Origin: Marinobacterium rhizophilum DSM 18822
GTDB lineage: Bacteria > Pseudomonadota > Gammaproteobacteria > Pseudomonadales > Balneatricaceae
NCBI RefSeq assembly: GCF_000378045.1
Contig: NZ_KB899098.1
Span: forward strand, 62,001 to 126,000
Direction of reading: 5' to 3'
DNA: 64,000 nt
Shown: positions 21,002 to 44,818 of the stretch, piece by piece
How positions within the stretch are numbered: position 1 is the first letter of the stretch
Layout: every line of letters starts with the position of its first letter
Made by a program: the position numbers and the translations under genes
The notes under the pieces: model-generated
Seen by the model: only the letters and a program-made list of their open reading frames with translations
What the model was told of the DNA's origin: nothing
Database searches by the model: none

Positions 21002-22843
21002 ATGACAGATACCTCTCAGCAGCAATCTCGTCTCAAGGAACTGATCGCCCGAGGCAAGGAACAGGGTTACCTGACCTATTCCGAGGTAAACGATCATCTG
21101 CCAGAAGATATCGCGGATCCGGATCAGGTCGAAGATATCATCCGCATGATCAACGAACTGGGCATCTCGGTCACCGAGGAAGCGCCGGATGCGGAAACCC
21201 TTCTCATGACCGAAGGCGACTCGGCCGAAGAAGCTGACGAGGATGCGGTTGCCGCACTTGCAGCGGTCGACTCCGACGCCGGACGCACCACCGACCCGGT
21301 GCGCATGTACATGCGCGAAATGGGTACAGTCGAACTGCTGACCCGCGAAGGCGAGATTCTCATCGCCAAGCGCATCGAAGAAGGCATTCGTGAAGTCATG
21401 TCGGCACTGGCCTGCTTCCCGGGTTCTGTCGAAACTCTGCTGGGTGCCTATGAGGTTACCCTGCAGGAAGAAGGTCGCCTGAGCGATATCTTCAGCGGCT
21501 ACATCGATCCGGACGAAAGCAACTTCGTACTCGAAGTGCCGGAGACCGAAGAGATCGACGAAGACGACGACACCGACGATGACGACGATGACGATGACGA
21601 CAGCGATGACGACACCGAGGAAAAGGACCGCGGTCCCGATCCCGAAGAGGCCCGTCAGCGCTTCGCCAACCTGCTGGACAAGCTTGAAGCCGTAAACCTC
21701 GCCCTGGTCGACGGCGACCGCAACGCGCCCGCCGCACAGGAAGCTCTGGCAACCCTGGGTGAAGCCTTCTCGCCGATCAAGCTGTCACCGCGCTATTACG
21801 AGCTGCTGGTCACCCGTGTACGTGCCTGTGTTGCCCGTATTCGCGAGCAGGAAAGATCCATCATGCGCATCTGCACCCAGCGTGCACAGATGCCGCGCCG
21901 CGACTTTATCAAGGCATTCCCGGGCAACGAATCCAACACCCAGTGGTTTGAAGAAATCATTGCCAAGGGCCCGGCCTACGCCGGCGCCATGCAGCGCAAC
22001 CTGGTGGATTTGAAACGGGCCCAGAAAAAGCTGATCCAGATCCAGGAAGAGGCCCGGATTGACCTCGCCGAAATCAAGGAAATCAATCGTCGCATGTCGA
22101 TTGGTGAAGCCCGCGCTCGCCGTGCCAAGAAGGAAATGGTCGAGGCCAACCTGCGTCTGGTTATTTCCATCGCCAAGAAATACACCAACCGGGGTCTGCA
22201 GTTCCTGGATCTTATCCAGGAAGGCAATATCGGCCTGATGAAGGCGGTGGACAAGTTCGAATACCGTCGGGGTTACAAGTTCTCGACATACGCGACCTGG
22301 TGGATTCGCCAGGCGATTACGCGCTCCATTGCCGACCAGGCTCGCACCATCCGTATTCCGGTGCACATGATTGAGACCATTAACAAGCTCAATCGCATTT
22401 CCCGCCAGATGCTGCAGGAAATGGGCCGTGAAGCAACGCCGGAAGAACTGGCCGAGCGCATGGACATGCCGGAAGACAAGATCCGCAAGGTGCTGAAGAT
22501 CGCCAAAGAGCCGATCTCCATGGAAACGCCGATCGGCGACGATGAAGACTCCAGCCTTGGCGACTTTATCGAAGACATCACACTGTCTTCCCCGGTGGAT
22601 TCCGCTACCGGCGAAGGTCTGCGTGAAGCGACCCGCGAAGTTCTGGCCGGCCTGACCGCCCGCGAAGCCAAGGTGCTGCGCATGCGTTTCGGTATCGACA
22701 TGAACACCGACCACACGCTGGAAGAAGTCGGCAAGCAGTTCGATGTCACCCGCGAGCGTATTCGCCAGATCGAAGCCAAGGCGTTGCGCAAACTGCGCCA
22801 CCCGAGCCGCTCCGATCACCTGCGCAGCTTCCTCGACGAGTAA
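21002..22843 (+). CDS. rpoD: RNA polymerase primary sigma factor (sigma-70)
   Basis: The 613-residue protein has region 1.1 (about 1-80) and region 1.2 ([19 protein letters not shown]). A non-conserved region follows with an extraordinarily acidic run at about residues 183-212, mostly Asp. Regions 2-3 ([37 protein letters not shown]) and region 4 with the helix-turn-helix ([17 protein letters not shown]) complete it. It directs transcription of housekeeping genes. Length matches E. coli sigma-70. A strong terminator follows. Confidence 0.99.
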
Positions 22844-23002: not shown

Positions 23003-23031
23003 TTGGCTCCGTCTACAGCAGCCGTTATAAT
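23003..23031 (+). promoter_or_regulatory. Promoter of the tRNA-Ile2 gene
   Basis: TTGGCT (23003-23008), a 17-bp spacer and a perfect TATAAT (23026-23031) stand 15 bp before the first tRNA base. The GC-rich discriminator CGCCCTCG is typical of stringently controlled stable-RNA promoters. Confidence 0.75.
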
Positions 23032-23045
23032 TCGCCCTCGTTGAC

Positions 23046-23122
23046 GGGCCCATAGCTCAGTTGGTTAGAGCAATCGACTCATAATCGATTGGTCGCAGGT
23101 TCAAGTCCTGCTGGGCCCACCA
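23046..23122 (+). tRNA. tRNA with CAU anticodon, Ile2 (lysidine) type
   Basis: The 77-nt gene folds as a full cloverleaf: acceptor GGGCCCA/TGGGCCC, anticodon stem ATCGA/TCGAT with loop CTCATAA (anticodon CAT at 23080-23082), T stem GCAGG/CCTGC, encoded CCA at 23120-23122. The anticodon arm and variable loop (CGACTCATAATCG, TTGGTCGC) match E. coli ileX rather than elongator tRNA-Met. ileX also lies just downstream of rpoD in E. coli. The C34 would be modified to lysidine by TilS to read AUA. Call as Ile2 is by similarity; anticodon alone cannot separate it from Met. Confidence 0.88.
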
Positions 23123-23371
23123 CTCCTTCCAGTCGCGCCAGTCCTCATTGGACTATTCAATCCTCAAATCATAGATTTGAGTCGCACAAAACGACCAAAG
23201 CAATGCTTTGGATACTGCTCGTCTTGTTGCTCTGCTGGGCCCACCACTCCTTTCAGTCGCGCCAGTCCTCATTGGACTATTCAATCCTCAAATCACAGAT
23301 TTGAGTCGCACAAAACGACCAAAGCAATGCTTTGGATGCTGCTCGTCTTGTTGCTCTGCTGGGCCCACCAC
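23108..23371 (+). repeat. 124-bp tandem repeats carrying the tRNA 3' end
   Basis: A 16-bp sequence CTGCTGGGCCCACCAC, made of the last 15 nt of the tRNA plus one C, recurs exactly every 124 bp at 23108, 23232 and 23356. Between them are two full units that differ at only about three positions. Each unit contains two small perfect hairpins: CAAATC-ATA-GATTTG (variable loop; first copy from 23165) and CCAAAGC-AAT-GCTTTGG (first copy from 23195). The period is not a multiple of three, so no protein repeat is encoded. The layout resembles the 178-bp repeats after E. coli tyrT, which also carry the tRNA tail. Confidence 0.93.
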
Positions 23372-41569: not shown

Positions 41570-43555
41570 GTGAGCAAGATTCAACACGCTGTCATCGACT
41601 GGAAACACAACACTGCGCTATCCGCCCGCTTTGATGATGTGTATTTCAACACCGACGGCGGGCCTGCCGAAGCCAGACACGTATTCCTCGAGGGCAATCG
41701 GCTGGCCACACGTTTCGCGGCGCTCGATCAGCCCCACTTCAGCATTGCCGAAACCGGCTTTGGCACCGGGCTCAATTTTCTTGTCACGCGCGAACTCTGG
41801 TTACAGCGTGCACCCGACAATGCCCGGCTGAATTACATCTCGGTGGAGAAATACCCGCTCAACGCGCAGGACCTGGCCCGCAGCCTGGCGCACTGGCCCG
41901 AGTTTTCGGCGGGGGCCCGTCAGCTGCAGGCGCAGTACCCGCCCCTGCTGGAGGGGTTTCACCGGCTGGAGTTCGACAACGGCCGCATCAGCCTTACGCT
42001 GATATTCGCAGATGCCGCCCAGGGCTACGCCGAGCTCGAAGGCACGGTGGATGCCTGGTATCTCGATGGATTCTCGCCGGCAAAGAACCCGGCGCTGTGG
42101 TCTGCCGAACTTTTTGCACAGGTGGCACGCCTGAGCCACTCCTCGACACCCCACGCCACGACGCTCGCCACCTTCAGCGCGGCGCGCACCGTACGTGACG
42201 GCCTTGCCAACGCGGGCTTTGAACTGACCCGGGCCAGCGGCTTTGGCGCCAAGCGCGAAATGCTCACCGGCACCTATCTCGGGCCCCGGGCAGGTATCTC
42301 AAGCCACCCCTGGTTTGATGCACCCAGCCCCCGCCCGCGGCCCGACTCGGTGCTCATCCTGGGTGCTGGGCTTGCCGGCTGCTGCGCCGCCTATGCGCTG
42401 GCCCGCCGGGGCATTGCGGTCACGGTGCTGGAGCGTAGCGGGCAACCGGCCGGCGCCGGTTCGGGCAATCGCCAGGGGGCGCTCTACGCCAAACTGCCGA
42501 TTCACCCTACCAAACAGGGGCTGCTGCACAGTACCGGGCTTGAATACAGCCGCCACCTGCTGCGACACCTCAGCGCACAGGGGCTGCTGTCGCAACAGGC
42601 CTGGCAGGCCTGCGGGCTGCTGCAACTGGCTCAGAGCGACAAGGAGGCCGCCCGGCAACAGCAGCTGCTCGATGCCGGCGCCTATCCTGAAGCCCTGGTA
42701 CAGGCGGTGGATGCTATCCAGGCGAGCCGCCTGGCGGGATGCGACACCCCTCACACCGGGCTGTTCTTTCCCCAGGCCGGCTGGGTATCACCGGTGGACC
42801 TGTGCCAGGCGCTGTTACAACATCCTCTGATCAGCCTGCGAACGAACACAAGCGTAGAGGCACTGGACTTTCAAACGGATACGCAATGCTGGCAGGCCCG
42901 CTGCGATAGCGGCGAACGGCACCAGGCCGCCGTCGTGATCGTCGCGACTGCCGGTGCCGCCCAAACCCTGGAGCCGCTGACGCACCTGCCGCTCAAGGCT
43001 ATTCGCGGCCAGGTCAGCGAAGCCCCGGTGCCAGCGGCACAAGCGCCGTTGCGCACAGTCGTCTGCGGTGATGGCTACATCCCGCCGCCCATGGGGGGAA
43101 CCTACTGTTTCGGCGCAACTTTTGATCTGCACGACGCAGACACCGAAATTCGCGCACAGGATCACCAGAACAACCTCGACACCCTGAGCAGAACCCTGCC
43201 ATCGCTCGGTGCCGCACTGGCTCAACAGCCGCTGCAAGGCCGTGTCGCATTTCGCTGCTCGACACCGGACTATCTGCCCATCATTGGCCCGGCGCCAAAT
43301 GCAGAACGCTTTGCCACTGACTACGCCCGCCTGCGTCAGGATCGGAACTGGTCTTTCAATACGGAACCCTCACATTACCCCGGACTCTATGTCAGTGTCG
43401 GCCATGGCTCCAAGGGACTGCTCACCTGCCCGCTGGGCGCGGAACTCCTGGCCGGCCTGATCTGCAATGAGCCGCTGCCACTGGGGCGCACGCTTACCGA
43501 AGCGCTGAGTCCGGCCCGCTTTATCATCAAGAATCTGATCCGCGGGTCGATATAG
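41570..43555 (+). CDS. mnmC: Bifunctional tRNA 5-methylaminomethyl-2-thiouridine biosynthesis protein
   Basis: The 661-residue protein starts at GTG 41570 (VSKIQHAVIDW). An in-frame ATG at 41504 adds 22 unconserved residues, and still longer open frame upstream overlaps tviB antisense. The N-terminal methyltransferase (DDVYFNTDGGPAEARHVFL, AETGFGTGLNFL) precedes a C-terminal FAD oxidoreductase (about residues 260-640, LILGAGLAGCCAAYALARRG and GHGSKGLLTCPLGAELLAG). MnmC completes mnm5U34 in tRNAs reading NAA/NAG-type codons. Length equals E. coli MnmC (668). Its last 14 codons are repeated downstream. Confidence 0.95.
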   Translation: MSKIQHAVIDWKHNTALSARFDDVYFNTDGGPAEARHVFLEGNRLATRFAALDQPHFSIAETGFGTGLNFLVTRELWLQRAPDNARLNYISVEKYPLNAQDLARSLAHWPEFSAGARQLQAQYPPLLEGFHRLEFDNGRISLTLIFADAAQGYAELEGTVDAWYLDGFSPAKNPALWSAELFAQVARLSHSSTPHATTLATFSAARTVRDGLANAGFELTRASGFGAKREMLTGTYLGPRAGISSHPWFDAPSPRPRPDSVLILGAGLAGCCAAYALARRGIAVTVLERSGQPAGAGSGNRQGALYAKLPIHPTKQGLLHSTGLEYSRHLLRHLSAQGLLSQQAWQACGLLQLAQSDKEAARQQQLLDAGAYPEALVQAVDAIQASRLAGCDTPHTGLFFPQAGWVSPVDLCQALLQHPLISLRTNTSVEALDFQTDTQCWQARCDSGERHQAAVVIVATAGAAQTLEPLTHLPLKAIRGQVSEAPVPAAQAPLRTVVCGDGYIPPPMGGTYCFGATFDLHDADTEIRAQDHQNNLDTLSRTLPSLGAALAQQPLQGRVAFRCSTPDYLPIIGPAPNAERFATDYARLRQDRNWSFNTEPSHYPGLYVSVGHGSKGLLTCPLGAELLAGLICNEPLPLGRTLTEALSPARFIIKNLIRGSI

Positions 43556-44152
43556 TGGGAAAGTGGTGAGTGATGTGGCGGGAGCCCACTCTGTGGGCGA
43601 ATCGTTAACCCCGCACATCCTTCGCCCGGAGACCGGGCTCCCACCCACTCCGCGAGTCCAGCCCGCTTTATCATCAAGAATCTGGTCCGCGGGTCGGTAT
43701 AGTGGAAAAGTGGTGACTGGTGCGTGATGTGGTGGGAGCCCACTCCGCGAGTCCGGCCCGCTTTATCGTCAAGAATCTGATCCGCGGGTCGGTATAGTGG
43801 GAAAGTAGTGACTGGTGCGTGGTGTGGTGGAAGCCTACTCTGTGGGCGAATCGGTAACCCCGCACCTCATTCGCCCGGAGACCGGGCTCCCACCCACTCC
43901 GCGAGTCCGGCCCGCTTTATCATCAAGAACCTGATCCGCGGGTCGGTATAGTGGGAAAGTGGTGACTGGTGCGTGATGTGGTGGGAGCCCACTCCGCGAG
44001 TCCGGCCCGCTTTATCATCAAGAATCTGATCCGCGGGTCGATATAGTGGGAAAGTGGTGAGTGGTGTGAGTGATGTGGCGGGAGCCCACTCTGTGGGCGA
44101 ATCGGTAATCCCGCACATCCTTCGCCCGGGGACCGGGCTCCCACCCACACTG
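43509..44152 (+). repeat. Tandem repeats derived from the mnmC 3' end
   Basis: A block starting GTCCGGCCCGCTTTATC, which encodes the last codons and TAG of mnmC and runs on into GTGGGAAAGTGGTGA, occurs at 43509 (inside mnmC), 43656, 43751, 43905 and 44000. Spacings are 147, 95, 154 and 95 bp. Long units add a hairpin made of GTGGGAGCCC, GGGCGAAT, ATTCGCCC and GGGCTCCCAC; short units lack it. Thus two unit types alternate. The copies are about 95% alike and would each still encode ARFIIKNLIRGSV plus stop. No gene lies within. Confidence 0.92.
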
Positions 44153-44173: not shown

Positions 44174-44818
44174 ATGGCACTTGTCATCTACGATCAGGGT
44201 TACAGGATACAGACCCCTGTTCGGGCCCTGTTCAAGCCCGGCGGCGTTGACATTCTTCAGCCGGTCAAGGCACTGCACCCCGCCGCCAGCGAAGAGCAGC
44301 GCATTGAAACCGAAGCGGAGCGATTTTCGCTGCCACACGAACCCCAGCATAAAAAGACAGCTCGGCAACAACCGGCCCAGCGCGCCTACGAAGCCAGCGA
44401 AGAGGTTCTGGAAAAGCGCGGCGCCCCCCAGCTGCTCGCAGCACAGATCATGACCAGCCCGGTCGAGTCCATCAGCCCTGAGACAACCATCAGGGATGCC
44501 CGCGAACGCATGCGGCATCTGCACATCGAACACCTGGTGATTGTCTCGCCACAGGCCCGCCCGCTCGCCATGCTCAGTGCCCGGGATCTGCACCAGAGCG
44601 CACTGCCTGCGCAAAGCCCTGTTGCCGCCATTCACAGCCGCCACCTGCTTGCAGCATCACCGCAAACCGATGCCTCTCACCTGGCAGCCAGCTTTGTCGA
44701 GTTTGATCTGGGTGCAATGCCCATTGTTGATGAAGAGGATGCGCTGGTCGGAATAGTCACGCGCACCGACCTGCTGCGCTTGCTGATCAGTGGCGCCCAT
44801 ATCGAACGATGGGCCTGA
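44174..44818 (+). CDS. CBS-domain protein
   Basis: The 214-residue protein starts at ATG 44174 with a strong GAGGAGG ribosome-binding site; the open frame upstream lies in the repeats. Residues 1-85 are unique and begin MALVIYDQGYRIQTPVRALF. Residues about 90-205 form a CBS pair (AAQIMTSPVESISPETTIRD, LGAMPIVDEEDALVGIVTRT), which usually binds adenine nucleotides. A similar stand-alone CBS protein is common in pseudomonads; its target is unknown. It is monocistronic, immediately downstream of the mnmC-derived repeats. Confidence 0.85.
   Translation: MALVIYDQGYRIQTPVRALFKPGGVDILQPVKALHPAASEEQRIETEAERFSLPHEPQHKKTARQQPAQRAYEASEEVLEKRGAPQLLAAQIMTSPVESISPETTIRDARERMRHLHIEHLVIVSPQARPLAMLSARDLHQSALPAQSPVAAIHSRHLLAASPQTDASHLAASFVEFDLGAMPIVDEEDALVGIVTRTDLLRLLISGAHIERWA

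Follow-up and report, generated by a model that had tools for sequence, protein, structure and literature searches.

The tRNA gene at 23046-23122 of the window (the whole 64-kb stretch of DNA analysed here) is followed by two tandem units that each end in a copy of the tRNA 3' end, raising the question of whether such units are segments of the tRNA transcript processed to small RNAs, as a sequence-only reading of this DNA had proposed, or products of a process acting on the DNA itself. Tandem repeats carrying tRNA ends have been known for decades from E. coli tyrT. The features of the locus are given below, with R2 denoting a body-only covariance model of 22 sequences, one of which is window unit 1.

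21002-22843, + strand: rpoD-like open reading frame of 613 aa upstream of tRNA(CAU), from the ORF list and named by reading its translation
23003-23031, + strand: predicted sigma70-like promoter (TTGGCT-17-TATAAT) before the tRNA, by consensus match alone
23046-23122, + strand: tRNA with anticodon CAU (presumably Ile2), by ARAGORN and Rfam
23108-23122, + strand: last 15 nt of the tRNA, recurring (with one more C) as the tail of each unit
23123-23246, + strand: unit 1, comprising spacer, body and tRNA-tail copy (tail 23232-23246)
23140-23154, + strand: hairpin 1 of unit 1, AGTCC-TCATT-GGACT, by folding
23146-23236, + strand: body in unit 1, R2 model match (G000:C10:85146-85236)
23163-23181, + strand: hairpin 2 of unit 1, 8-bp stem and 3-nt loop, by folding, with compensatory changes across genomes
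23195-23211, + strand: hairpin 3 of unit 1, CCAAAGC-AAT-GCTTTGG, by folding, the core of a longer stem
23247-23370, + strand: unit 2, comprising spacer, body and tRNA-tail copy (tail 23356-23370)
23270-23360, + strand: body in unit 2, R2 model match (G000:C10:85270-85360)

The tRNA(CAU) gene and its two units

A single tRNA is found in the window, with anticodon CAT, the ARAGORN label tRNA-Met and an Rfam tRNA score of 77.5 bits; we take this tRNA(CAU) to be tRNA-Ile2. The 16-mer CTGCTGGGCCCACCAC starts at 23108, 23232 and 23356, bearing out the exact 124-bp recurrence first noticed from the sequence alone, with 15 of its 16 letters belonging to the tRNA 3' end and the final C sitting behind CCA. 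Tandem Repeats Finder (TRF) reports a single array at this place (23108-23371, period 124, 97% matches, score 507), which ends directly after unit 2, and the two units (23123-23246 and 23247-23370) are 97.6% identical, in agreement with the earlier estimate of about 97%. Two small hairpins per unit had been described, but folding gives three, with the fold of unit 1, the one unit assessed, reaching z = -3.6 as RNA and -3.7 as DNA, and 0 of 200 shuffles being as good.

Searched against its own genome, the 124-bp unit returns two matches at E<=0.1, namely the two units of the window, and no others. A profile built without the window sequences (the other 21) likewise recovers from the 64-kb window, at a limit of E 10, only 23147-23221 (E 3.9e-6) and 23271-23345 (E 2.6e-6). 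The window units are matched weakly by a profile made from the nine non-Ile2 sequences (E 0.0048, and 0.028, the latter under the inclusion threshold), while 10 of the 11 other Ile2 loci supplied are matched by the same profile, each with a best match better than that of the window. The body end has decayed in the window units, which read TTGTTGCT in place of ..CACCC. Elsewhere in the window, a 249-bp tandem repeat at 43507-44148, with an inner period of 95 bp and about 2.6 copies, contains GTCCGGCCCGCTTTATCATCAAGAATCTGATCCGCGGGTC and lies just before an ATG near 44174.

Absence of the unit from every relative would have pointed to a single local duplication; the unit is instead present in four of the seven genomes of the genus, and the family is spread over the Gammaproteobacteria. 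At the orthologous tRNA, the window's genome (G000) and G001 each carry two units, with a spacing of 124 in G001, whilst G005 carries one unit of 136 bp with an altered tail, and G004 two units at a spacing of 242. The G004 units appear, in our reading, to be enlarged by a REP-like insert, and because of this long insert they were kept out of alignment A1; at this locus (L011 1930-2440) the REP-like sequence (GTAGGAGCGGCGTCCCGCCGCGAAC) is duplicated together with the tRNA-tail unit, now 242 bp. The unit was not matched in the congeners G002 and G003, and G006 holds only a 21-nt fragment of it, on another contig. At the orthologous tRNA of G006, NTP_transf_2 (PF01909) and HepT-like (PF01934) genes, probably a toxin-antitoxin pair, form a two-gene island flanked on either side by a 48-nt copy of the tRNA 3' end (L014 1955-3070).

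Contigs from one genome per species (84,980 species) were also scanned for a pattern consisting of the tRNA tail occurring twice. This returned nine loci, seven of which, all gammaproteobacterial, have a homologous unit body; as the pattern carried no information on the body, its recurrence amounts to an independent discovery. The seven belong to a Saccharospirillum MAG, Halopseudomonas formosensis, H. yangmingensis, Salinibius halmophilus, a Halothiobacillus MAG, a gammaproteobacterial MAG and a Pseudohongiella MAG, the last with nine tails at 132-bp spacing, the tRNA's own included. The Salinibius locus (strain WDS2A16A, L036) has a complete tRNA followed by two units. The retrieved piece contains no complete tRNA in three of the seven (L032, L035 and L039), and in the two Halopseudomonas loci it contains the tRNA 3' part alone. 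In L033 (Lysobacteraceae) and L038 (a Bacteroidetes MAG), tRNA-tail repeats also stand behind tRNA(CAU), with bodies unrelated to the family; both were excluded from the counts. A one-off duplication is thus ruled out, as the body recurs across the class.

Genomic settings and junctions of the body family

R1, a covariance model made from the Ile2-linked units, has matches in 18 of 369 genomes of the class, with several of these lying behind other tRNAs and followed by that tRNA's own 3' end. The body-only model R2 has matches at E<=1e-3 in 78 of the 390 genomes searched from the order and in 30 of 350 from the class; in both the R1 and R2 searches the copies per genome are lower bounds, because Infernal scored 9-12 candidates per genome. 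The hits analysed further number 253, from 193 loci (120 regions from the order and class R2 searches, plus other loci), with 244 distinct once duplicates were removed. Outside this set lie G389 (3 places), G155:C31:34408, places beyond those listed, and R1 loci that did not recur in the R2 searches (among them G468, G475, G259:C58/C29 and G423:C20/C8).

Sorted by right flank, the 244 distinct hits comprise 60 followed by a sense tRNA 3' part, 31 by an antisense tRNA 5' part, 72 bearing the flank motif that marks a dispersed palindrome, 2 joined to 5S rRNA by a strict test, 16 with a tail-like flank and no mapped tRNA, 5 with a flank resembling a tRNA 5' part, and 58 others. These 58 were kept as one group, which takes in more tRNA-like and 5S-like cases, degenerate ones, some units from congeners of the window, and marginal matches. 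Homologous bodies occupy 29 combinations of tRNA isoacceptor and orientation, a few of which were perhaps mapped to the wrong tRNA. Copies are 95-100% identical within arrays and 32-83% identical between genomes. The tRNA-Arg of one genome (G357, L127) has arrays on both sides.

Bodies were also seen beside other genes. In L150 and L270 a marginal hit, likewise joined before CC, has a right flank that reads in reverse complement as the 3' end of an apparent ribosomal protein gene; from reading the sequence, this gene is presumably rpmG-like. In L248, L251 and L247 the body is joined to 5S rRNA sequence (confirmed as 5S by Rfam in L251 alone), with letters of the 5S 3' end forming an inverted repeat around the body in L248 and L251. 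The small RNAs reported between terminators in E. coli rRNA operons may bear on these 5S-linked bodies (PMC8144298). This hairpin-body family beside tRNA and 5S genes of many Gammaproteobacteria is apparently undescribed, with no description of it found in a literature search whose coverage of subscription journals was thin.

The junction between body and gene is closely defined. Of the 119 distinct hits whose locus includes a tRNA, 98 match that tRNA at 10 or more of the first 12 nt to the right of the body, compared with 2 of 119 for random 12-mers. Junctions were anchored on the CC common to the body end and the target, so that the exact junction base is ambiguous by one or two; the window units, whose body end no longer offers CACCC as an anchor, fall outside the 98. 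In the sense orientation, 55 of 60 junctions lie 16 nt from the tRNA 3' end (position 61) and the other 5 at 12 nt; in the antisense orientation, 27 of 38 lie 19 nt from the tRNA 5' end and 4 more at 18 or 20 nt, while the remaining 7 fall at other positions, some of them probably mapped to the wrong tRNA. The body is upstream of and antisense to the tRNA in 31 of the 98 mapped junctions. Most junctions in tRNA genes therefore fall at 60/61 (the T-loop/T-stem border, sense) or at 19/20 (the D-loop, antisense).

Across 37 distinct target sites, the letter before the junction is T in 26, A in 10 and C in 1, and the letters after it read CC[A/T/G][G/A/C][C/T/G][T/C/A], then G in 33 of 37, followed by further G-rich letters. 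On the element's strand, the site at the body end is mostly T or A, then the junction, then CCWRCYGRG. The D-arm and T-arm targets are alike although they are different parts of the gene, with the conservation of tRNA genes accounting for part of this likeness.

In 91 of 253 hits the right flank recurs to the left of the body as a direct repeat of at least 14 nt, compared with 1 of 236 when loci were mispaired as a control; a further 9 hits have 11-13 nt, 136 of 253 have no repeat of 11 nt or more, and 17 were unscored. These direct repeats often take in 40-60 bp or more of host flank, giving beside tRNAs a usual layout of intact gene, spacer, body, and copy of the gene end with spacer.

The body sits in the middle of a dispersed palindromic repeat in 72 of the 244 distinct hits, as judged by the flank motif. 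Copies of this form reach 98% identity over 157 bp in unlike flanking sequence; such likeness at non-orthologous sites was shown for the palindrome-borne form only. Two of these places in G597 were sought in the close relative G643, and both were found there with the same flanks and palindrome, precisely without the body (G643 ..GGCAC-GT-CCCTG.. against G597 ..GGCAC-[body]-CC..). Empty sites were thus seen for the palindrome-borne form and not for the tRNA-linked form; comparison of the two sites with and without the body reveals no duplication, and gain and loss are indistinguishable here. In the family of these two genomes (17 genomes, 15 of genus g306), the body is present at tRNA(CAU) in 2 of 17, G597 and G643; 14 of the 15 remaining genomes were read for 300 nt behind the tRNA, and G502 for only 24 nt, its single R2 match lying elsewhere. 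At L173 700-960, at L289 and at many places in g306 genomes lie high-copy palindromic repeats with long outer stems that differ in sequence from copy to copy and a conserved centre (GCCATCCATGGC...), some of which host body B. A partner transposase of the RAYT (Y1) type was considered and rejected for want of association: Y1_Tnp (PF01797), the only enzyme family compared, occurs in 14 of 20 B-rich genomes and in 11 of 20 without a listed R2 match.

Insertion, template switching or processed RNA

With moderate confidence, we regard the 124-bp unit as an instance of a non-autonomous DNA-level hairpin element, here termed body B, of about 80-90 bp with two to three hairpins and the usual right end CTCAC. 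Body B would insert, or be copied in, before the CC of a short motif, with transposition or template switching at hairpins as the candidate step. Insertion into a palindrome would be harmless, and in a needed tRNA gene the survivors would be only those events that also duplicated the cut-off gene end, the host tRNA surviving because its end is duplicated. The resulting direct repeats would seed arrays in which gene end, spacer and B expand and contract in tandem by recombination or slippage, which would explain why copies within one genome are so alike (about 95-100%). As a direct repeat is found at tRNAs and none at the palindrome, one mechanism must explain both. Also weighing against this account are the failure to find a transposase or other enzyme, with Y1_Tnp the one family compared, the lack of body matches in viral contigs, phages and plasmids for two exact patterns and one query, and the 136 hits with no direct repeat of 11 nt or more.

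A broader reading, which we offer tentatively as possible rather than probable, is that body B represents a new class of tiny mobile DNA elements recognising tRNA genes at their elbow loops, through the T-loop and D-loop hairpins, and comparable sites of 5S genes and palindromes, the recognised form probably being single-stranded DNA, with insertion duplicating the severed gene end such that an essential gene survives. The favoured account itself points to an unannotated repeat family of many Gammaproteobacteria that targets stable-RNA genes without destroying them, and offers a testable origin for tandem repeats carrying tRNA ends. The target motif and the empty sites supplied here make the mechanism itself testable.

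The main rival to an inserting element is template switching at hairpins without any dedicated enzyme, which we consider unlikely. No mobile element would be involved; polymerase stalling and template switching at local hairpins would duplicate the gene end in place and keep palindromes perfect, with the similarity of bodies reflecting old vertical descent or convergence. Correction of quasi-palindromes by template switching is known to keep palindromes perfect, and the predominantly Watson-Crick stems with double changes, the tandem arrays, and the CC shared by body end and target at 37 of 37 distinct sites (junctions being anchored on it) are all consistent with such a process. However, a homologous body at so many tRNA isoacceptors, in both orientations and in palindromes besides, is poorly accounted for by events arising in place, as are the 98% identity at differently flanked places and the precise absence of the body in a related genome.

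Less likely again is that the units are a structured RNA, made as part of the tRNA transcript and then cut into small RNAs or decoys of the tRNA tail, an idea put forward for E. coli rtT as well; such an RNA is a weaker reading than a DNA-level insertion module. The stable fold and the stems, which vary with compensatory changes across genomes, are in keeping with an RNA, and in the window read-through into the repeats is possible, since a promoter-like site precedes the tRNA (two consensus matches in the region against 0.4 expected) and no terminator-like site was found on the + strand of the repeats, the only such sites there being hairpin 3 on the - strand (2 against 1.2 expected). In 8 of 37 distinct first units, however, an intrinsic terminator separates the tRNA from the body, compared with 0.04 in a shuffled control (again 8 of 37 under other settings, partly in other units, with a control of 0.95). 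These are units at Arg-CCG (3 of 5), Pro-GGG (4 of 7) and Ser-GGA (1 of 1), whilst tRNA(CAU), the tRNA of the window, has none in 12. The terminators before the body, together with the antisense positions, make a tRNA-trailer RNA unlikely as a general purpose of the family.

The base pairs of the stems point the same way. A structured RNA family would be expected to tolerate G-U pairs, yet body stems hold 24 G-T against 47-48 A-C among 2,962 pairs, compared with 28 G-T and 0 A-C among 644 pairs in the tRNA acceptor stems of the same loci (Fisher, about 1e-10). The G-T to A-C ratio is 9:11 in sense-tRNA units and 0:8 in antisense units, and whilst it reads 6:3 in Ile2 units and 6:4 in alignment A2 (22 sequences, not structure-fitted), both of these are too few to decide. 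There is thus no overall G-U excess; the mild overall A-C excess (G-T 24 of 72, p 0.006) could reflect an RNA made from the opposite strand.

No known RNA family was identified in the repeats, the tRNA alone reaching a gathering score in the window. In the body loci (9 at E<=5, 15 at E<=1), the sub-gathering Rfam matches besides tRNA and rRNA were to sX4 and isrK, with the rest on the opposite strand over tRNAs or outside the bodies. The sX4 match (38.9 bits, cut-off 70) runs across a tRNA-Ser(CGA) and 48 nt into the repeated spacer behind it (L058 1332-1473, G247), and the isrK matches (26.4 and 21.5 bits, cut-off 50) lie over parts of the Pro units of L057. A tRNA mimic with its own acceptor stem was noticed by eye in single units (G137) and dropped. 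The proposal of a tRNA trailer that yields small RNAs is therefore not supported as a general explanation, given the antisense positions, the terminators, the palindrome setting and the lack of a G-U excess, but transcription into the repeats is possible in the window, and for arrays such as this one the promoter-like site makes a secondary RNA role possible.

That the repeats are footprints of an integrase, with attL/attR remnants at tRNA attachment sites, is very improbable: tRNA 3' parts are indeed duplicated, the T-loop is a known integrase sublocation and G006 carries an island of that type at the orthologous tRNA, but the repeat begins past the T-loop and without its letters, the repeats include locus-specific host flank and terminators, some junctions lie antisense in the D-loop, and the unit is not long enough to encode an integrase. 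No integrase was recognised on reading the open reading frames at 18-29 kb of the window. A phage or plasmid origin was likewise set aside, with no body match among viral contigs, phages and plasmids for two exact patterns and one query, which is weak evidence because the viral patterns were exact and narrow.

Comparison with known systems

Body B, the inserting element favoured here, shares features with several known systems. REP/RAYT-type palindromic repeats are likewise short, intergenic and hairpin-forming, lack a gene of their own and, in some genera, reach many copies per genome; body B differs in its fixed tRNA junction with duplication of the gene end, and showed no link to Y1 in 40 genomes. 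MITE-like elements resemble it in having dispersed near-identical copies with different flanks and precise presence or absence, whereas body B has no recognised constant terminal inverted repeat or short constant target duplication. Integrative elements at tRNA genes, as in the G006 example at the orthologous tRNA, also duplicate the tRNA 3' part; in contrast to these, body B has a junction without T-loop letters, no integrase, host flank in its repeats, and uses both ends of the tRNA.

The closest likeness is to rtT of E. coli tyrT/tyrV and its RttR RNA. The architecture is as the sequence-only reading had described it, with tyrV/rtT also consisting of a tandem array behind a tRNA whose 3' end every unit repeats, and both systems are rich in hairpins. 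The repeated tail is 19 nt in E. coli, 15 nt in the window and mostly 16 nt in its relatives, and the unit is about 178 bp in rtT compared with 124 bp here. The bodies are not detectably homologous, in keeping with the earlier suggestion of an independent case: run on the E. coli loci with filters off, R2 gives a best match of 10.8 bits (E 0.079), on the opposite strand. Furthermore, rttR is annotated as an RNA with the small ORF tpr inside, whereas an RNA product of the window repeats is a possibility. As the architecture matches and the sequence does not, the window repeats were not filed as rtT; if the broader reading of body B is true, long-known tRNA-tail repeats such as rtT would themselves be products of a general insertion process.
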